NCBI GenBank assembly: GCA_016193065.1
Contig: JACPSX010000227.1
Span: 1 to 6,830, forward strand
DNA: 6,830 bases
Direction: 5' to 3'
Source of the DNA: Candidatus Tectimicrobiota bacterium
GTDB lineage: Bacteria > JACPSX01
Program-made: the position numbers and the translations under genes
Notes under the pieces: model-generated
The model's input: the letters and a program-made list of their open reading frames with translations, nothing else
Database searches by the model: none
Told to the model about the DNA's origin: nothing
In this document: positions 292 to 6,604 of the stretch, in pieces
Numbering within the stretch: position 1 is the first letter of the stretch
Layout of the letters: every line of letters starts with the position of its first letter

Positions 292-750
292 CTATGTTCG
301 GGCGGAGCTGGAGCGCTTGAGGGACCCGACCCCGTGCAGCACCCAGGTTCGATAGTGCTCGAAGTGATTCTGCAGCGCCCGCGACGTGACCGCGCCGTCG
401 ATGAACAGATGGACTGCCTCGCTCAGAATCAGCAGCGTCTCCGCGTTCCCTTTAATGGTGACGGTCCCACCGGCGAGCAGGCGCAGCAGAGTGGCTGTTC
501 CGTCCACCAGATCCAGGATGTCGCGGGGGGTGATCGCGGCCTCTACCTTCGTGGTCTTTGCCCGCCAGCCGGGGGCCACGGAGATGCGACTCCGTGCCGC
601 CGTCAGCGTGAACCGTTCCGTCCCGACCTGATACCGTCCCGGCGCCGCTTCGAGAGAGACGCACAGCGCGGCGTAGCGGTCCGGCGATTCTGCCTTGAGA
701 ATCTCAAACGCACGCCGGAAAAACTGAAGCGTGGAGTCTGCACGTGCCAC
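292..750 (-). CDS. SCP2-type sterol/lipid-binding domain protein
   Basis: This 152-residue protein resembles the SCP2 sterol-carrier fold. Residues 42-118 carry the typical pattern: a beta-rich stretch (VGTERFTLTAARSRISVAPG), a TPRDILDLVDGTATLLRLLAGG helix-loop (residues 74-95), then VTIKGNAETLLILSEAV. This matches the family's usual segment ending in 'G.v.i.Gd...l..l'. SCP2 domains bind a lipid in a hydrophobic tunnel and usually act in the cytosol; no signal peptide is seen. Two starts are possible. TTG at 774 overlaps the upstream TGA in a TTGA junction. GTG at 750, chosen here, has AAGGGA 12 bases upstream. Open frame continues upstream, but it is antisense-like sequence opposite the CrtC-like gene in another frame. 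This is the last gene of the operon and probably carries a hydrophobic product or substrate. The lipid is unknown. Confidence 0.75.
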   Translation of the reverse strand: MARADSTLQFFRRAFEILKAESPDRYAALCVSLEAAPGRYQVGTERFTLTAARSRISVAPGWRAKTTKVEAAITPRDILDLVDGTATLLRLLAGGTVTIKGNAETLLILSEAVHLFIDGAVTSRALQNHFEHYRTWVLHGVGSLKRSSSART

Positions 751-770
751 AGTGCCGCAAGATCCCTTGC

Positions 771-1814
771 TCAACCGGCCAGCTCGGCAAACCCGGCATA
801 GGTAAAGGCGAAGGCGCGCCCGCCCAGCACCCCCTGGGCCTGGTACGGCCCCACGAGCTCGGCGATGGTCGTGGTCCCGCCTCCCACCGGATGGGGAACG
901 AGGAACTGGAGAGCATTTTCCACATCCATCCGAATCTCGACCCGGTCCTCCCCGTCCTCGGCACGGATGCGGAGTTGGCGCGGAATGCCGGAGACCCGGG
1001 GCGGAGCGAGCAGCGCCATCACGCCGGGAACACGCGGGATCGCCACTCCGGTCAGTTCCCCCGCCGTCGCAATGTCCACGGCCTCGTCGAGGAAGACCTG
1101 CGCGCACCTCTCGCCGACCCAGACCAGCAGCACGAGATCGGACTTGGCGGCGGCGCGCGTGGCATCCGTGACTTGCCCGAACACGATGGACACCGGAGGG
1201 GACCCGTTCCTGGTTCGTGGCGGCGATTGGATGAGGTAGCCCCAGTCCCACCCGAGGTCCGTGCCCCAGTTCCAGTACCCCCAGTTGTGGTCGTGATAGC
1301 CGGTGGCGCCCTCGATCCGGTACTCGCAGCCAGCGATGCGCACGGAGCCTTCAACGGCCAGGCGCGGCAGGATGAACGTGTTGATCATCCCCCCGATGTT
1401 GTCGACGCGGATGGCCGATGCTTCGGGCGTCCACGAAGCCTTCAGGACGACTGAGCCGTCCTTGAGCGCTGCCGAGACGAGGTAGCGGTCCTTTCGGAAC
1501 CGCACGGAGTTAGCGCCGATTTGCAAATCGACCGATCCCGGCGAGAAACGCGCTTCCTCGATCGAGTACAGGTTCATCGTTCCGCGCCACCCCTTTTTCC
1601 GGTCGCACACGACGAGGGAAACCCCGGCCCGTCCCTGCGCGGGATCCTGGATGTTGCCCGACAGCGCCAGGTTGAGGACGCCGTACAGCCCGTTGGCGTC
1701 ATCGTTAAAGTTGAAGTGATGCCACTCGCTGTACTTCTGCAGTTCGCCCGGATCGGTCCGTGGACGACTCAGCGCATCATCCTGTTGGATGCGGGTGACG
1801 AACCTCAGCTTCAC
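771..1814 (-). CDS. CrtC/AttH-like lipocalin-fold protein (carotenoid 1,2-hydratase or cyclase-like)
   Basis: This 347-residue protein has the hallmarks of the CrtC (hydroxyneurosporene synthase)/AttH family. Near the N-terminus is SEWHHFNFND (residues 29-38), the counterpart of the family's E-W-[WH] motif. In the middle is GYHDHNWG (172-179), followed by WNWGTDLGWDWGYLIQ (181-196). Members add water to or cyclise hydrophobic polyene or prenyl substrates, and some are Diels-Alderase-like. No signal peptide is seen. The start is GTG at 1814, 12 bases after the preceding gene's stop, with GAGG about 10 bases upstream. With Idi and a prenyl synthase in the same operon, a prenyl-derived substrate is likely. 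No carotenoid synthase or desaturase is present in the window, so a carotenoid-specific role is unsupported. The fold assignment is fairly firm; the reaction is not. Confidence 0.8.
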   Translation of the reverse strand: MKLRFVTRIQQDDALSRPRTDPGELQKYSEWHHFNFNDDANGLYGVLNLALSGNIQDPAQGRAGVSLVVCDRKKGWRGTMNLYSIEEARFSPGSVDLQIGANSVRFRKDRYLVSAALKDGSVVLKASWTPEASAIRVDNIGGMINTFILPRLAVEGSVRIAGCEYRIEGATGYHDHNWGYWNWGTDLGWDWGYLIQSPPRTRNGSPPVSIVFGQVTDATRAAAKSDLVLLVWVGERCAQVFLDEAVDIATAGELTGVAIPRVPGVMALLAPPRVSGIPRQLRIRAEDGEDRVEIRMDVENALQFLVPHPVGGGTTTIAELVGPYQAQGVLGGRAFAFTYAGFAELAG

Positions 1815-1826
1815 GTCAGCATCGCC

Positions 1827-2129
1827 TCATCGGAGCAGAGATGAATGGAGATCGGGCTTGTCGCTCCCGGCATGTGCCTCTGGCGCATGGGCCGGGTCGT
1901 CCAGGAAGAAAGAAGAGACTTGCCTGAGCTGATTCTCCACGAGCTGTGTGGCCAGCCGCAATTCGGCCCGATGGTTTTGGAAAAACGCCCCCGGCCGCCA
2001 TAGCAAATCAGTGACTTCCGGCGTCGGGAGCAGCAGGCGCAGGATCAGATACAGGTCGTTGGCGGGAGTCTCTTCGATCCTGATCCGAGGGAGCGTCGCT
2101 CGCGGTGGAGCTTTCACAGAGCGCCTCAC
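1827..2129 (-). CDS. Small hypothetical protein in the operon
   Basis: I do not recognise this protein of up to 100 residues. GTG at 2129 overlaps the upstream TGA (GTGA). A second GTG at 2117 gives 96 residues and has GAGG 6 bases upstream, so it may be the true start. The N-terminus is basic and Pro-rich. It is followed by a hydrophobic segment (DLYLILRLLLPTPEVTDLLW) and a likely amphipathic helix (AELRLATQLVENQLRQVSSF); the tail is Ala/His/Asp-rich and looks disordered. There is no signal peptide and no cysteine. It fits snugly between its neighbours, which supports it as real. It may associate with a membrane, a lipid surface or a partner protein through its helices. The coding call is moderately sure; the role is unknown. 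Confidence 0.6.
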   Translation of the reverse strand: MRRSVKAPPRATLPRIRIEETPANDLYLILRLLLPTPEVTDLLWRPGAFFQNHRAELRLATQLVENQLRQVSSFFLDDPAHAPEAHAGSDKPDLHSSLLR

Positions 2130-2833
2130 GACGCGCGCCGCTTTTTCGCCGGCTTGGCACGCTTGACTGTCTGGCCCGCCGGTTTGGCCTCCTTCCCGGG
2201 CGGCCGGACCGTGATCGCAAGTGCCACTTCCTTGGCCTGGAATCCCAGCACGCGGATCGTCGTGCTGTAGGTCTGCCCCACCACGAAGTCTTTTGTCAGA
2301 GTGACTGCGGCGTTCACCACCGCCTGGCCCTTCGGGGCCACCATCAAGGTGGCGGGCTCAAAGGAGATATGCGAAGCCGGAAGGGCGCGCCCGCTCCCGG
2401 GGACCAGGTCACTGGCCTGGAAGGCCACATCAAGGGCACGGTCGTAGCGGTTCTCCACAAGAAATGGCGCAGTCACTCGTTCCCCCTGCCGCCCCTCGAG
2501 TCGCATTTCGACCTTCTGTTCGGCTGACGGGCCGGGTTCCGGAGCAGGGCGCGCCTTGGTACCCAGGGCTTGTTCTGCCGCCGAGACGATGCCGTTGAGG
2601 AGCGCCATCCCTTGCGTGCTGATCACCGAGTAGGACGCGAGGTTGAACTCCATCCAGCGCGCGAACAATGTGGACGCGTCGATCGGCTCCTTCTGGCGGG
2701 CGGTGGCGGCTTTCACCAGTTCGTTGATACGGGCCATCAGTTGGACGTTCCCGGCAAGGTTAGCCGATATCAGCGCTTTCAACTCCTCGACGAAGGTCTC
2801 CGGCGACATGCGTTCGGTCGAACCCTTCGACAT
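2126..2833 (-). CDS. Phasin-like helical domain plus Ig-like domain plus basic tail
   Basis: This 235-residue protein has three visible parts. Residues 10-90 are alpha-helical and amphipathic (for example FARWMEFNLASYSVISTQGM, then ALLNGIVSAAEQAL). They resemble the Phe/Leu/Ala helices of granule-associated phasins, but this is a similarity of style and not a proven match. After a Pro-rich linker (95-104), residues 105-210 form an Ig-like beta-sandwich pattern with 'apFLVENRYDRALDVAF' and 'VTLTKDFVVGQTYSTTIRVLG'. Residues 212-235 are a Lys/Pro/Ala/Arg tail (VKRAKPAKKRRAS). ATG at 2833 is chosen because AAGGAGG lies 9 bases upstream; upstream in-frame GTGs at 2857 and 2839 flank that site. There is no signal peptide and no cysteine. 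The Ig-like segment is related in pattern to the two preceding genes. A structural or scaffold role is inferred. Confidence 0.75.
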   Translation of the reverse strand: MSKGSTERMSPETFVEELKALISANLAGNVQLMARINELVKAATARQKEPIDASTLFARWMEFNLASYSVISTQGMALLNGIVSAAEQALGTKARPAPEPGPSAEQKVEMRLEGRQGERVTAPFLVENRYDRALDVAFQASDLVPGSGRALPASHISFEPATLMVAPKGQAVVNAAVTLTKDFVVGQTYSTTIRVLGFQAKEVALAITVRPPGKEAKPAGQTVKRAKPAKKRRAS

Positions 2834-2842
2834 CGTCACTGC

Positions 2843-2849
2843 CCTCCTT
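2843..2849 (-). promoter_or_regulatory. Shine-Dalgarno AAGGAGG that fixes the start at 2833
   Basis: A perfect AAGGAGG ends 9 bases before ATG 2833. It lies downstream of the longer GTG candidate (2857), so it argues against that start. Confidence 0.75.
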
Positions 2850-2909
2850 GTCGTCACCCGGTTTGTATTCGAGCGAACCCTCTCCCCAACAGCGCGGCGT
2901 GGTCGGCGG

Positions 2910-3599
2910 TCACCGTGGATTGGTGTCGGTGGCGAACTCCGTCACCACCTTGCCCATTCCTGGCTTCCCCACGGGTTGTGGCGCACAGGGTTCGGCGCAC
3001 TGGAAGTGATCATGCCAACGATGCGCACGAATCCGGACCGGGGGATCCCCCTGCGCCACCTCGCAAGCACAATGCTGCTCGCCCTGGACCTCCAGGGTGA
3101 CGCAGACGCACTGCTCATAGGCTCCCTGGACAAGGATCTCCGCCTCGTATCGTCCCGGCGTGAAACCGGCCGGGACCGTAAAGGTCGCAGTCACGACACC
3201 GGATTGGCCGGCGGGAAGCGTGAGATTGGTGGGCGACAGCGCGATGGTTGCCGACGATCCTCCGGCCCCGACGAAAGGGGTCGCCTGAAAGGTGAAGGTT
3301 CGCCCGGTCTGCGAGGCGTTGGTGACGCGGATCGTGCAGCGCAGCGTTTCTCCCCGACCGGCTTCCCAGGCGATCTCACACGCGCACCGCGGAGGACATT
3401 CGGTCTCGGGGATCTCGCACATGCCCTTCGGCTTGAGCGCGCTCCAGGCAGGCATTGCAGGGGACAAAATGCCGGCAGCCTGCTGCATGAAGACGCGGGC
3501 GCTGTCCACAGACATGGCCAGCAGCCTGGGGGCAAGCGTAGCCAGGTTTACCATCGTCGGCTGTTTGGGAGCTGTGGATTTCACGAATACTCGACTCAT
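2910..3599 (-). CDS. Cysteine-rich Ig-like domain protein
   Basis: This 229-residue protein has no signal peptide. Residues 17-45 form an apolar, probably helical segment (LATLAPRLLAMSV, then FMQQAAGIL). A Cys cluster follows: C61, C68, C72 and C74 in the stretch CEIPETECPPRCAC. Residues 75-171 are an Ig-like beta-sandwich of the NPCBM-associated/COG1470 style, with RCTIRVTNAS and the closing strands FTVPAGFTPGRYEAEILVQG. The tail repeats the CACE motif (C177, C179), contains H195 and H198, and adds C201 and C205. In all there are eleven Cys, including three CxC pairs. ATG 3599 is chosen because GGAGG ends 5 bases upstream. ATG 3602 gives one more residue and an ATGA overlap with the upstream stop. 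Translation is probably coupled to the upstream gene. Metal binding or disulfide cross-linking is possible but unproven; a structural role is inferred. Confidence 0.75.
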   Translation of the reverse strand: MSRVFVKSTAPKQPTMVNLATLAPRLLAMSVDSARVFMQQAAGILSPAMPAWSALKPKGMCEIPETECPPRCACEIAWEAGRGETLRCTIRVTNASQTGRTFTFQATPFVGAGGSSATIALSPTNLTLPAGQSGVVTATFTVPAGFTPGRYEAEILVQGAYEQCVCVTLEVQGEQHCACEVAQGDPPVRIRAHRWHDHFQCAEPCAPQPVGKPGMGKVVTEFATDTNPR

Positions 3600-4390
3600 C
3601 ATGGCCTCCGTTTGTTGGAACCGGGTGTGCCGTTGCATTCCACTTCAAAGTACAAGTCGGTGCTCATAAAGGGGATGGCCCGGACGTATGTCCGGCCCTT
3701 GATCAATTTCTCCGGTAAGGTGATCTCCGCGTGGACCTCCCGGGTCTCCCCGGGTCGAATCTCCCGCGGGTTCGCATGGAAGGTCACCCGGGCAGGACGG
3801 ATGTCGGTGGCGCGGATCTCGCGCAGGAGCCGGTCGAGATACGCCTGATGGCTTTCGCCTTCTTCCGTCTGGCGCAAGGCATATACGAGCGAGCGGCCGA
3901 ACCAATCGCGCTCCTCGAGGTGGACCAGCGCCAGCTCGGGTACCGTGTGCGTCACGTTGCCCCGATTCGTGATGACGAGGGGCTGGGAGAACACCTGCCC
4001 GGCAACGCCGCGGAATTGGAGGCGCTCAGGCGCGACGCGCACGTCCAACTTTTCCAGGACGTGGACCACAACCTGCTCCCGTTGCTCCCCGCAGGCGAGT
4101 TCAGCGGTGTACTTGCCGGGCGGCGTGTAGGGGTCCACGAAAAAGTGGGCCCGCACGCGGGCGCGGTCCCGTGGCGCGAGGCGAGCGGCCAGCCGCACCT
4201 CTTGGAGTCCCCGGACGGCGAGCGCCTCCCCCTTGTGACCGGTGGCGCCAATCGCCCGCACTTTCACTTTTTCATCCGACGCATTGATGAGCTCCAGATC
4301 GCCCGAACACATCGGCGGCACGCCGCTGAGTATGAACGGCCCGGCACCGAGCCGCCACGCCTGTCCAGGCGGAGCTGTATGCTTTTGCAT
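3599..4390 (-). CDS. Two-domain Ig-like beta-sandwich protein
   Basis: This 263-residue protein appears to hold two tandem beta-sandwich segments. The first (about 18-113) runs from 'SGDLELINASDEKVKVRAIG' to 'YTPPGKYTAELACGE'. The second (about 115-252) begins 'LDVRVAPERLQF' and has the classic QPLVITNRGNVTHTVPEL strand pair. A charged, probably helical insert (about 155-195) interrupts it, and it ends with 'ITLPEKLIKGRTYVRAIPFM'. That 'lP..l..G.tY...I' pattern recurs in the next two genes, which suggests paralogues. No signal peptide or membrane span is visible, which is unusual for such domains because many family members are extracytoplasmic. ATG 4390 has AAAGGAGG 9 bases upstream. The stop TGA (3601-3599) overlaps the next gene's start. 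No catalytic motif is seen, so a structural or adaptor role is inferred. Confidence 0.75.
   Translation of the reverse strand: MQKHTAPPGQAWRLGAGPFILSGVPPMCSGDLELINASDEKVKVRAIGATGHKGEALAVRGLQEVRLAARLAPRDRARVRAHFFVDPYTPPGKYTAELACGEQREQVVVHVLEKLDVRVAPERLQFRGVAGQVFSQPLVITNRGNVTHTVPELALVHLEERDWFGRSLVYALRQTEEGESHQAYLDRLLREIRATDIRPARVTFHANPREIRPGETREVHAEITLPEKLIKGRTYVRAIPFMSTDLYFEVECNGTPGSNKRRP
3605..3609 (-). promoter_or_regulatory. Shine-Dalgarno GGAGG within the preceding gene's end
   Basis: GGAGG sits in the last codons of the two-domain Ig-like gene. It is 5 bases before ATG 3599 but only 2 before ATG 3602, so it favours the second ATG. The stop and start share bases (ATGATGA), typical of coupled translation. 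Confidence 0.65.
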
Positions 4391-4399
4391 GATGGCGTC

Positions 4400-4422
4400 C
4401 CTCCTTTGCCACAGCCGGTGGC
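4400..4422 (-). promoter_or_regulatory. Ribosome binding site with adjacent small hairpin
   Basis: AAAGGAGG (4407-4400) precedes ATG 4390. Directly 5' of it on the transcript, GCCAC and GTGGC (within 4408-4422) can form a perfect 5-bp stem with a 5-base loop. No T tract follows, so it is not a terminator. It may act in mRNA stability or in setting translation between the repeat-protein gene and the Ig-like genes. Confidence 0.4.
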
Positions 4423-4446
4423 GCGCAAGGCTTCACCCGCAGGGGC

Positions 4447-4833
4447 TCACGCGCACGTTTCGGTCTTGTGCGGCACATAGTCCTCGATCACAACCATGCT
4501 TTCCCCGCACACGCAGAAGGACAGCAGCTCCATTCCCAATGTGCACAGGCCGAACTTGAGGTTGACCGGGAAGTGCACGCGGGTCGGTTTCATGGCCATC
4601 TCGACATGCAGGTCGATCCGCGGAAGCTCCTTGATACGGATGTTGTCGAGACCCATGTCCACTTTGCTGTCGCTCGTGAGCTTGCTATCGCTCGTGAGCT
4701 TACTGTCGCTGTTGAGCGAGATGGTCGGGAGTTCCTTGACGTGGATATTGTCCAGATCCATGTCCAGACTGCCGCTCAAGGCCATATTCGAGTCAATGGT
4801 GTAATGGGTGGGAACGCTGATACCCTTGCTCAT
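4447..4833 (-). CDS. Internally repetitive small protein of unknown function
   Basis: I do not recognise a named family for this 128-residue protein. ATG 4833 is well supported by AAGGAG (4846-4841) 7 bases upstream. Residues 25-40 (MDLDNIHVKELPTISL) and 60-75 (MGLDNIRIKELPRIDL) are near-identical copies. They flank three copies of a hexapeptide, SDSKLT, SDSKLT and SDSKV (residues 42-58). The alternating polar/apolar pattern suggests beta structure, possibly a small repeat sheet. The C-terminal third is different: HFPVNLKFGL, then C97, a CVC pair (C107, C109) and C127. There is no signal peptide. It lies 38 bases after the prenyl synthase gene and 56 before the Ig-like genes, as part of the same operon. 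CxC pairs also mark the Cys-rich Ig-like protein nearby, so the two might be partners. A scaffold role is a guess. Confidence 0.8.
   Translation of the reverse strand: MSKGISVPTHYTIDSNMALSGSLDMDLDNIHVKELPTISLNSDSKLTSDSKLTSDSKVDMGLDNIRIKELPRIDLHVEMAMKPTRVHFPVNLKFGLCTLGMELLSFCVCGESMVVIEDYVPHKTETCA
4609..4656 (-). repeat. Copy 2 of the duplicated 16-residue coding unit
   Basis: Encodes MGLDNIRIKELPRIDL, matching the copy at 4714-4761 at 11 of 16 residues. The two units flank the hexapeptide tract. This suggests an old internal duplication kept by selection at the protein level, because the DNA copies have drifted. Confidence 0.75.
4663..4710 (-). repeat. 18-base tandem repeat encoding SDSKLT hexapeptides
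   Basis: Two full 18-base units plus 12 bases of a third encode SDSKLT, SDSKLT and SDSK. On the plus strand the shared core is TCGCTCGTGAGCTT. Copies differ by only a few bases, so the tract may vary in copy number by slippage. Confidence 0.8.
4714..4761 (-). repeat. Copy 1 of the duplicated 16-residue coding unit
   Basis: Encodes MDLDNIHVKELPTISL, the partner of the unit at 4609-4656. The shared core is the L-D-N-I-x-[VI]-K-E-L-P-x-I-x-L pattern. Confidence 0.75.
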
Positions 4834-4871
4834 CTACAATCTCCTTCTTTGTGCCGCGGGCCGTGCAACCT

Positions 4872-6053
4872 TCATAAGTCCCTGTAGATCACGTAATCGA
4901 TCATTTCTTCGAGAAACCGTCTGTGCGGCGTTTCCGCCAAGTCGCCCATCTCGCCAAGGAAAATGGTCCTGGCCGATTCTGCAAACCTCCGGGACACGTC
5001 GCGCCCATAGTCCAGACACCCGTACTTATACATCAACCCCAGCACCTCCTCGACTTCCGGTGCCGTCTTTCCTTCCCGCGGCTTGGACATGACGCGCACC
5101 ATGCGCTGATGCTCGCGCGCGCTGCACCGTTGCAGCAGTTTGATGAGCATCAGCGTCCGCTTCCCTTCCCAGATGTCTCCTGCCGTTTCCTTGCCGTAGC
5201 GCCCCTCTTCGCCGACCAAGTTCAAGAGGTCGTCCTGGATCTGGAAGGCGACACCCATGTAATACCCGAACCGGATGAACGCGTCCAGGTTGGCGTTGTT
5301 GCTGCCGCCGATGATCGCCCCGATCCGGCAGGGCGTGATGCACGTGTACCAGCATGTCTTCTTGCAGGTCATCACGTGATAGTGGCGGTCGGTGAGGTTC
5401 CAGTGCCGATTCTTCACCCACTCCAGCTCCATCGCCTGCCCCTCCACGGATTCCCGCGCCATTCGTTCGATCTCCTTGAAGATTCTCAGCGTCTTCTCCA
5501 GCCCGAGGACCTCGAGGTTGTTCAGGAGCGGGGTCATGGAAAGCACGTTCAGCGCGTCGCCCACGTTGATCGCGATGGCGACTCCGTACTTCCGGTGAAT
5601 GGTCGGCTCGCCGCGCCGGTGGATGGATTCATCCTCTACGTCGTCGTGCACCAGAAAGGCATTGTGAAACAGCTCCAGGGCCACCGCCGATTGCAGCGCG
5701 TGCTCCAGCCGTCCCCCGAACGCCTGGCAGGTGGCGAGGCACAGCGCGGGCCGAAGCCCTTTGCCGGCGCGGAGCGGGTATTCGGCCAAGCGCCCCGCGA
5801 GCGCCTTTTGGAATCGCTTCGCCGCGATGATCCGGCGCATCTCGCTGATCACGGCGTCGCGATACGTGAGCAGCATCTCGGAAAAGACGCGGTCCGCATG
5901 CGGCGGCGTACTCCCATGGGGTTGACGTGCCGCACTCCCATTCCCTTGTCTTTCCATAGTTTTCCCAGGGATCCCCTGAAGGACTCTCAGCGCGTACGGG
6001 TCCCGAGAGAACTCCTCCACCCACCCGCCTTTTTTGCCGAGCGCCGCTCTCAC
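4872..6053 (-). CDS. Trans-isoprenyl diphosphate synthase (polyprenyl synthetase family)
   Basis: This enzyme condenses allylic diphosphates with isopentenyl diphosphate. Numbered from GTG 6053 (393 residues), the family landmarks appear in order: GKGLRP (97-102; GGKRLRP is usual), first Asp-rich motif DDVED (137-141) followed by RRGEPT, KKT (231-233), second Asp-rich region QDDLLN (273-278) and GDIWEGKRT (292-300). The last Asp of the second motif is Asn. Residues 4 and 5 before DDVED are Phe and Ala, so a short product (C15-C20) is plausible but uncertain. Four Cys at i+4 spacing (230, 234, 238, 242) are unusual. The start is uncertain: GTG 6053 overlaps the idi stop as GTGA, GTG 6020 has AAGG 7 bases upstream, and ATG 5957 gives 361 residues with a weak ribosome site. 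The first ~55 residues would be an extension ending in a Gly/Pro/His-rich linker. Confidence 0.93.
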   Translation of the reverse strand: MRAALGKKGGWVEEFSRDPYALRVLQGIPGKTMERQGNGSAARQPHGSTPPHADRVFSEMLLTYRDAVISEMRRIIAAKRFQKALAGRLAEYPLRAGKGLRPALCLATCQAFGGRLEHALQSAVALELFHNAFLVHDDVEDESIHRRGEPTIHRKYGVAIAINVGDALNVLSMTPLLNNLEVLGLEKTLRIFKEIERMARESVEGQAMELEWVKNRHWNLTDRHYHVMTCKKTCWYTCITPCRIGAIIGGSNNANLDAFIRFGYYMGVAFQIQDDLLNLVGEEGRYGKETAGDIWEGKRTLMLIKLLQRCSAREHQRMVRVMSKPREGKTAPEVEEVLGLMYKYGCLDYGRDVSRRFAESARTIFLGEMGDLAETPHRRFLEEMIDYVIYRDL

Positions 6054-6604
6054 CGCCAGCCCCCATTGTTCTTCACCTGCTCGGGCATACCGCGAGCCCG
6101 CAGCTCCGCCCAGGCGATCCGAAACCATACCGAATAGCGCCCCGGGCTCGCCGCCACGTCGTCGCTCACCTCGTCGACGCCGGCCCAGCGCCAGTCATCC
6201 ACCTCGTCGGGATTGGGCCGGGGATCTCCCTCGAACTCCCCTACGAAGACGTGATCGTACTCATGCTCGGTCAGGCCATGGTCCAACTCGGCCTTGTAGA
6301 TGAAGCTGAAGGCCGGGGACAATGCGCAATCGAACCCCATCTCCTCATGCAATCGCCGGCGGGCCGCCTCTCCGATGGGCTCTCCCGGCCGCGGATGGCC
6401 GCAGCAAGTATTCGTCCACAACCCACCGGAATGGTACTTGGTGACCAACCGCCGCTGTAGGAGCAACCGGCCGGCTCCGTTGAACACGAAGACGGAAAAG
6501 GCGCGGTGCAGCGTGCCTTGTTCGTGCACGGGGATCTTCTCGCCCGTGCCCACTTCCACGTCGTTTTGGTCCACAAGGACGAGCTTTTCTTCCACTTCAC
6601 TCAC
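6050..6604 (-). CDS. idi: Isopentenyl-diphosphate delta-isomerase, type 1 (Nudix fold)
   Basis: This enzyme interconverts isopentenyl and dimethylallyl diphosphate in the cytosol, supplying the starter for the downstream prenyl synthase. The 184-residue length is normal. Motifs are complete: metal-ligand His in IPVHEQGTLHRAF (H27, H33), LLLQRR, then LWTNTCCGHPRPGE with catalytic Cys68 and metal-ligand H70. AARRRLHEEMG is the Nudix-like helix, and TEHEYDHVF carries E113 and the catalytic E115. The start is GTG. GTG 6604 gives 184 residues, but GTG 6595 (181 residues, VEEKLVLVDQ) has AGGG 8 bases upstream and is a strong alternative. It is the first recognisable gene of the operon. Type 1 Idi in bacteria is often placed in isoprenoid clusters, as here. 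The stop overlaps the next gene. Confidence 0.96.
   Translation of the reverse strand: MSEVEEKLVLVDQNDVEVGTGEKIPVHEQGTLHRAFSVFVFNGAGRLLLQRRLVTKYHSGGLWTNTCCGHPRPGEPIGEAARRRLHEEMGFDCALSPAFSFIYKAELDHGLTEHEYDHVFVGEFEGDPRPNPDEVDDWRWAGVDEVSDDVAASPGRYSVWFRIAWAELRARGMPEQVKNNGGWR

Follow-up and report, generated by a model that had tools for sequence, protein, structure and literature searches.

A conserved gene cluster places isoprenoid-chain enzymes beside scaffold- or coat-like cytoplasmic proteins and suggests an undescribed inclusion or assembly line for an isoprenoid lipid

Introduction

In polyhydroxyalkanoate (PHA) granules, or carbonosomes, coat-like proteins are tied to a biosynthetic enzyme, and in family 2 encapsulins a polyprenyl synthase or terpene cyclase is the cargo of a compartment (PMC8346489). 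Bacterial carotenoid clusters bring together isopentenyl-diphosphate isomerase (Idi), a prenyl synthase and a CrtC-type enzyme. Here we describe a cluster of nine genes from a Candidatus Tectimicrobiota bacterium (assembly GCA_016193065.1; 2.9 Mb, 86% complete) that resembles each of these systems in part. Contig JACPSX010000227.1 is identical with the window, the 6,830-nucleotide stretch that was analysed, and the operon is described within those bounds. The genes idi, pps, rep, igA, igB, igC, g7, crtC and scp2 lie in this order on the minus strand between positions 292 and 6604 (Table 1).

Like the PHA granule genes, the cluster ties coat-like proteins to a biosynthetic enzyme, and the N-termini of its igC/igD-type proteins are helical and phasin-like; it differs in having isoprenoid enzymes and an additional Ig domain, in the weakness of its Phasin_2 matches and in that no PHA synthase was found in the genome. 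A prenyl synthase is linked to compartment genes in family 2 encapsulins as well, but we saw no HK97 shell protein and found Ig and helical proteins instead. The components shared with carotenoid clusters are Idi, the prenyl synthase and the CrtC-type enzyme; the window differs in carrying rep, igA, igB, igC and scp2 and no phytoene synthase or desaturase. A literature search, restricted to open-licence papers, turned up no account of this gene set, which is weak evidence of novelty. The occurrence of isoprenoid-chain genes beside genes for scaffold- or coat-like cytoplasmic proteins suggests that an isoprenoid lipid has an inclusion or assembly line of its own that has yet to be described.

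Results and discussion

The Ig-like and repeat-protein genes are linked to one prenyl synthase subfamily

An earlier note on this DNA had predicted that the repeat, Ig-like and CrtC-like genes would accompany prenyl synthases in other genomes. About 85,000 species genomes were scanned with the synthase subfamily, which yielded 80 loci, and their neighbouring genes were identified by profile search of open frames. The loci span at least ten phyla (Bacteroidota, Pseudomonadota, Myxococcota, Cyanobacteriota, Gemmatimonadota, Actinomycetota, Deinococcota, Dormibacterota, Chlorobiota, Balneolota and others) plus two Bathyarchaeota bins, and the predicted linkage was found across them. Any Ig-family gene was present nearby in 66 of the 80 loci, and in 58 the synthase has a gene of the igC, igD or f16 type no more than 300 bp away. 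Homologues of rep, igA and igB (individual counts in Table 1) are all present together in 20 loci.

Homologues scattered through genomes and unlinked to prenyl synthases, which the note had named as grounds for abandoning its reading, were not what we observed. The igA profile, applied to 31 whole genomes that carry the loci, matched in 22, once each and always within the cluster, apart from a second, weak match inside the same cluster in one genome. Included in the 22 is a genome (G320) with the cluster split across contig ends, rep-igA-igB ending one contig and igC-methyltransferase-synthase starting the other. Over 386 diverse genomes the same profile gave, besides the window, only three weak generic Ig matches. 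In a set of 290 diverse genomes, the closest synthases (52-53% identity) come from two, and in both an igC/igD-type gene immediately precedes the synthase gene; except for these two, control loci with synthases outside the subfamily had no such neighbours. A genome-contig scan with igC alone gave no match, the 8-residue exact patterns used leaving too little room for a family this divergent, and searches of plasmid proteins returned nothing for rep, igC or igA and only weak matches for CrtC. The linkage of these unusual genes to the prenyl synthase is thus well supported.

Cluster architectures and alternative modifying modules

The loci fall into recurrent architectures. In Bacteroidota the order is rep-igA-igB-igC-igD-synthase followed by a geranylgeranyl-reductase-like (GGR) gene (architecture 1), and in many phyla it is rep8-igD-synthase with GGR, often together with f9 and a giant PKD protein (architecture 2). 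Architecture 3 consists of rep-igA-igB-igC with a methyltransferase, the synthase, an igC-like gene, crtC and scp2, and is found in Roseobacter, Cellulomonas, Dormibacter, Lysobacterales and two Flavobacteriales; the window has this architecture minus the methyltransferase. Architecture 4 is synthase-igC-crtC-scp2, and architecture 5 is a cyanobacterial synthase-f16-crtC with scp2. In architecture 6 (9 of 80 loci, mostly Myxococcota) an amine-oxidase-type FAD oxidoreductase lies beside the synthase. A homology of rep to rep8 was considered from their common position and a vague resemblance at the C-terminus, but is not supported by profile comparison (E 0.016, probability 3%).

A crtC gene is present in 20 of the 80 loci, each time alongside scp2 (20/20), and a GGR-like gene in 36; the two co-occur in a single locus. 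Because they replace one another in this way, crtC and GGR look like alternative chain-modifying modules. The synthase tree places the crtC clade that includes the window (100/100) apart from the GGR and FAD clades, and requires 10 changes of architecture compared with 34.5 in shuffles, with the phyla intermixed. That architectures track the synthase tree while phyla intermix suggests spread of the cluster by horizontal transfer. The two Bathyarchaeota bins (L061 and L063) have an igD-synthase pair, which reflects either transfer into archaea or misbinned contigs.

On the GGR branch, all 17 giant PKD-domain partners (~1200 amino acids; for example L053:4988-8743 and L084:5160-8807, plus 15 other loci) contain a single hydrophobic stretch, central and about 30-45 residues long, which fits an anchor in a membrane or on a lipid surface. 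The stretch exceeds one membrane span and often has a Gly-rich middle, and it resembles a hairpin anchor. After the rep end of one crtC-type cluster lies a gene that is acyltransferase-like by eye only (L115:8718-9569), a hint of product esterification.

Isoprenoid supply and the prenyl synthase

The Idi and prenyl synthase identities given in the earlier note are firm. The idi product passes the type 1 isopentenyl diphosphate (IPP) isomerase equivalog models, NF002995 (186.7 bits against a cut-off of 127; E 3.2e-55) and TIGR02150 (E 2.8e-35), and by this family assignment balances the supply of IPP and dimethylallyl diphosphate (DMAPP). The pps product matches PF00348 with an E value of 5.5e-60 and is 52-53% identical to cluster synthases of other phyla; its open frame extends back to 6128, and the likely start is the ATG at 5960 or one further in. 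Together, Idi and a prenyl synthase produce polyprenyl diphosphates. The clusters of the two nearest relatives of the window contain an IspH (LytB) gene (L057:14038-15006 and L059:6114-7040), in parallel to Idi in the window. Among the Ig genes of L057, on the opposite strand, there are in addition genes for an AMP-binding ligase and an acyl carrier protein.

The synthase also scores 184.6 bits on NF041169, the model for the polyprenyl cargo of family 2 encapsulins, as would be expected if the cluster encoded an encapsulin-type nanocompartment loaded with the synthase. This score is far under the cut-off of 450, and no capsid-like gene was noticed among the recurrent cluster families. No match to an SrpI-like shell (PF19307) was obtained in the genome, a result that is uninformative as the control matched nowhere. 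We regard an encapsulin as extremely improbable.

The crtC and scp2 products

The AlphaFold2 model of CrtC (pLDDT 90.4, pTM 0.90) matches AttH (2ich) with Z 28.0 over 286 residues, kievitone hydratase (7a0t) with Z 25.7 over 275, Diels-Alderases with Z 25 and 25-phosphosteroid lyase with Z 22.8; the next matches reach only about 8. It has the double lipocalin-like beta fold of AttH, kievitone hydratase and the CrtC-like pericyclases by which we defined the superfamily, so the CrtC/AttH-like assignment made earlier is confirmed at superfamily level by the predicted fold, despite the lack of any Pfam or NCBIfam match (rep and g7 likewise gave none in these searches). Several of the fold matches in the Z 22-28 range are enzymes acting on isoprenoid side chains, and CrtC proper and kievitone hydratase hydrate a terminal prenyl double bond (PMC4717167, PMC5805349). 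Residues essential in CrtC are a His-x-Trp pair and Tyr266-x-Asp268 (PMC4717167). A Tyr-x-Asp motif (Tyr173, Asp175) is invariant in 20 of 20 cluster crtC sequences, its equivalence to that of CrtC being by motif alone, whereas the His-x-Trp pair is not evident in the family alignment. From the modelled fold, the cluster enzyme is a probable prenyl-chain hydratase, cyclase or lyase; it differs from its superfamily in lacking a Pfam CrtC match and in always occurring with an SCP2-like gene. CrtC relatives in diverse genomes have no cluster neighbours, and the one candidate, a synthase near a CrtC-like lipoprotein (L011), was set aside as apparently chance proximity.

Membership of the CrtC superfamily, and the presence outside the window of two genes of the squalene/phytoene-synthase family in this genome (G000:C48:24752-25504 and G000:C90:10636-11226), would also suit an ordinary cluster for carotenoid or terpenoid end-group modification in which CrtC acts as carotenoid 1,2-hydratase and the Ig proteins are unrelated passengers. 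The window itself lacks a carotenoid synthase or desaturase, however, no phytoene-synthase family was noticed among the recurrent cluster families, and the FAD amine-oxidase-like gene falls in a clade without crtC. The lack of an evident His-x-Trp pair, which CrtC requires, also argues against such a hydratase, and the Ig proteins travel with the synthase across many phyla and thus are not passengers. We therefore consider this explanation improbable.

SCP2 folds bind lipids. The SCP2-like assignment of the last gene passed the Pfam threshold marginally (PF02036, 22.0 bits compared with a cut-off of 21.3); its homologue in the L057 cluster (L057:10968-11459) scores 25.2 bits.

The Ig-like proteins and the repeat protein

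Pfam gives only sub-threshold Ig, NEW3 and fn3 matches for igA, igB and igC. Of the trio that the earlier note had called Ig-like, igC has a clear predicted Ig domain; igA and igB are sub-threshold on their own, yet profile comparison finds the Ig part of igA (99.2%) and igB (99.9%) homologous to igC. The families igB, igC, igD and f16 are mutually homologous by the same method. In the AlphaFold2 model of igC (mean pLDDT 81.7, Ig part mostly 93-97), helices 11-46 and 53-89 form a hairpin that is followed by a confident Ig sandwich. Structural matches found with VIA-align span the Ig part alone (104-213), with Z 10-12 to the N-domain of GH123, the ASH domain of CEP192, the MSP domain of VAP and PapD chaperones. 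Superposed on the CEP192 ASH domain (6fvi), the modelled domain gives Z 11.5 and a root-mean-square deviation of 2.0 across 102 residues, which places it in the MSP/ASH/PapD fold. In the MSP, ASH, HYDIN and VAP cytoplasmic Ig proteins this fold serves assembly or docking; igC differs in being bacterial, about 10% identical and fused to a helical hairpin, and PapD and GH123 match equally well.

MSP-type Ig domains elsewhere dock short peptide motifs, and VAP/FFAT structures are among the igC matches. The Ig and helical proteins could accordingly act as an enzyme scaffold, a metabolon that gathers synthase, modifying enzyme and carrier at the inner membrane with no inclusion formed. The adjacency of igC/igD/f16 genes to the synthase gene in 58 of the 80 loci and the single small enzyme set of each cluster agree with such an arrangement, but a dock would seem to need fewer components than several Ig proteins in parallel plus phasin-like helices and a repeat protein. 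We judge it a serious, if unlikely, alternative.

The PapD chaperones among the structural matches, together with sub-threshold S-layer-like NCBIfam matches of igB, raise a further alternative, an export or surface system in which the Ig proteins would serve a secreted lipid or polymer as PapD-like chaperones or as subunits at the surface. By a crude hydrophobicity test, however, the Ig-like proteins of the window lack a signal-peptide-like N-terminus, in agreement with the earlier note, and no strongly hydrophobic stretch was found in rep, igA, igB or igC of the window or in igA and igB homologues. No usher, sortase or secretion gene was noticed among the recurrent families, and we consider an export system very improbable.

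Conserved Cys/His motifs (CCPP..CPPxC and HxxxHFxC) in the alignment of the igB family may form a metal site, here within a cytoplasmic Ig protein. The rep product gave no Pfam, NCBIfam or PDB match; the consensus of its family at the C-terminus is GxELxSxCxxGESQxITEPY. The gene contains three tandem 18-nucleotide units (4664-4717) and a 41-nucleotide repeat, 80% identical, with copies at 4621-4661 and 4726-4766 that are 105 bases apart. Because of these repeats, the length of rep may differ from strain to strain.

Gene order and operon structure

All nine packed minus-strand frames claimed for the window were recovered in order. Overlaps of about 4 bases occur at the igA/igB, igC/g7 and crtC/scp2 junctions, and the remaining gaps are 12-89 bases with the synthase start set at 5960; an in-frame ATG upstream of igB may add one residue. 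Promoter-like and terminator-like sites in the window are not more frequent than in shuffles. From the packing and the conserved order we infer that the nine genes form a single operon. No homologue of g7 was found among the cluster loci, and L057 and L059 have other small genes at its position.

Table 1. Genes of the cluster in the 6,830-nucleotide window
Gene	Position	Strand	Product or features	Basis or occurrence
idi	6050..6604	-	isopentenyl-diphosphate delta-isomerase, type 1, Nudix	NF002995, TIGR02150
pps	4872..5960	-	trans-polyprenyl diphosphate synthase, KTCWYT subfamily	PF00348
rep	4447..4833	-	small repeat-bearing protein, conserved C-terminal region	homologues in 23 of 80 cluster loci
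igA	3599..4390	-	cytoplasmic protein, two predicted Ig/NEW3-like stretches	homologues in 23 of 80 loci
igB	2910..3596	-	helical-looking N-terminal stretch, Ig-like domain, Cys/His motifs	homologues in 21 of 80 loci
igC	2126..2833	-	predicted helical hairpin (11-89) and MSP/ASH/PapD-type Ig domain (106-213)	AlphaFold2, VIA-align
g7	1827..2129	-	small helical-looking protein	no family match
crtC	771..1814	-	CrtC/AttH-superfamily enzyme	AlphaFold2 fold match
scp2	292..774	-	SCP-2 sterol-transfer-like lipid-binding protein	PF02036; homologues in 21 loci

A model for the cluster

We give even chances to the reading that this is a widespread, horizontally spread cluster making a cytoplasmic polyprenyl lipid that is kept on a dedicated protein surface. 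Our inferences on the chemistry, on lipid binding and on a coat or inclusion are these. Idi, or IspH in the nearest relatives, would set the IPP and DMAPP supply, and the KTCWYT-type synthase would convert it to an all-trans polyprenyl diphosphate. The chain would then be finished at its double bonds, by a hydratase, cyclase or lyase of the CrtC superfamily in the window and by a flavoenzyme resembling geranylgeranyl reductase in the other main branch. SCP2 would bind or ferry the hydrophobic product. Proteins of the igB/igC/igD type would rest on the lipid through their helical part, with the Ig domain turned to the cytosol, like a phasin with a docking domain, and igA and rep would join them into a coat or scaffold. 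The phasin-like helices and the cytoplasmic-type Ig fold lend some support to a coat, scaffold or lipid-surface role and make it plausible. Phasin_2 (PF09361) matches are weak, with 7 of 32 igC family members matching and a best E value of 1.9e-4. The PHA synthase PhaC (PF07167) had no match in the 86%-complete genome, while the control matched in Caulobacter; the phasin-like proteins are thus unlikely to serve PHA. Both this negative result and the hydrophobic stretch of the giant PKD partners are in keeping with a role at a lipid surface. Of the interpretation first offered for this DNA, then, the linkage half is strongly supported and the coat or scaffold half is plausible.

Several observations weigh against the polyprenyl-lipid reading. 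Fourteen of the 80 synthase loci have no Ig-family gene. The igC of the window does not match Phasin_2 at the Pfam gathering score, and the amphipathicity of its predicted helices does not exceed that of shuffled sequence (p 0.62 and 0.37); in igC homologues it does so only weakly (p 0.01-0.09 against shuffles). The two squalene/phytoene-synthase-family genes elsewhere in the genome could draw on the same precursor. What the analysis itself shows is gene content, linkage, the folds predicted for igC and CrtC, and the mutual exclusion of the two modifying modules.

A bolder version, which we put forward tentatively and rate somewhat below an even chance, is an undescribed organelle-like isoprenoid-lipid inclusion, spread horizontally over at least ten phyla and with two interchangeable chain-finishing chemistries. 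It would have its own coat family of helical hairpin plus MSP-type Ig proteins and the repeat protein, joined elsewhere by the giant PKD protein with its hydrophobic stretch.

The cluster is found in cultured, named strains of Aequorivita, Chryseolinea, Kaistella, Chitinophaga, Massilia, Roseobacter and Cellulomonas, so that these proposals are directly testable. Of the culturable carriers, Aequorivita, Kaistella antarctica and Chryseolinea serpens have the full gene set of architecture 1, and Roseobacter cerasinus and Cellulomonas humilata have a cluster of the crtC type. If they are correct, several protein families that lack a function would gain one, and terpenoid engineering would gain new CrtC-superfamily enzymes and coat proteins. 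Bacteria of many phyla would then possess an inclusion for isoprenoids, or a surface dedicated to their assembly, of the same kind as PHA granules or plant plastoglobules, with coat proteins and a chemistry that await study.

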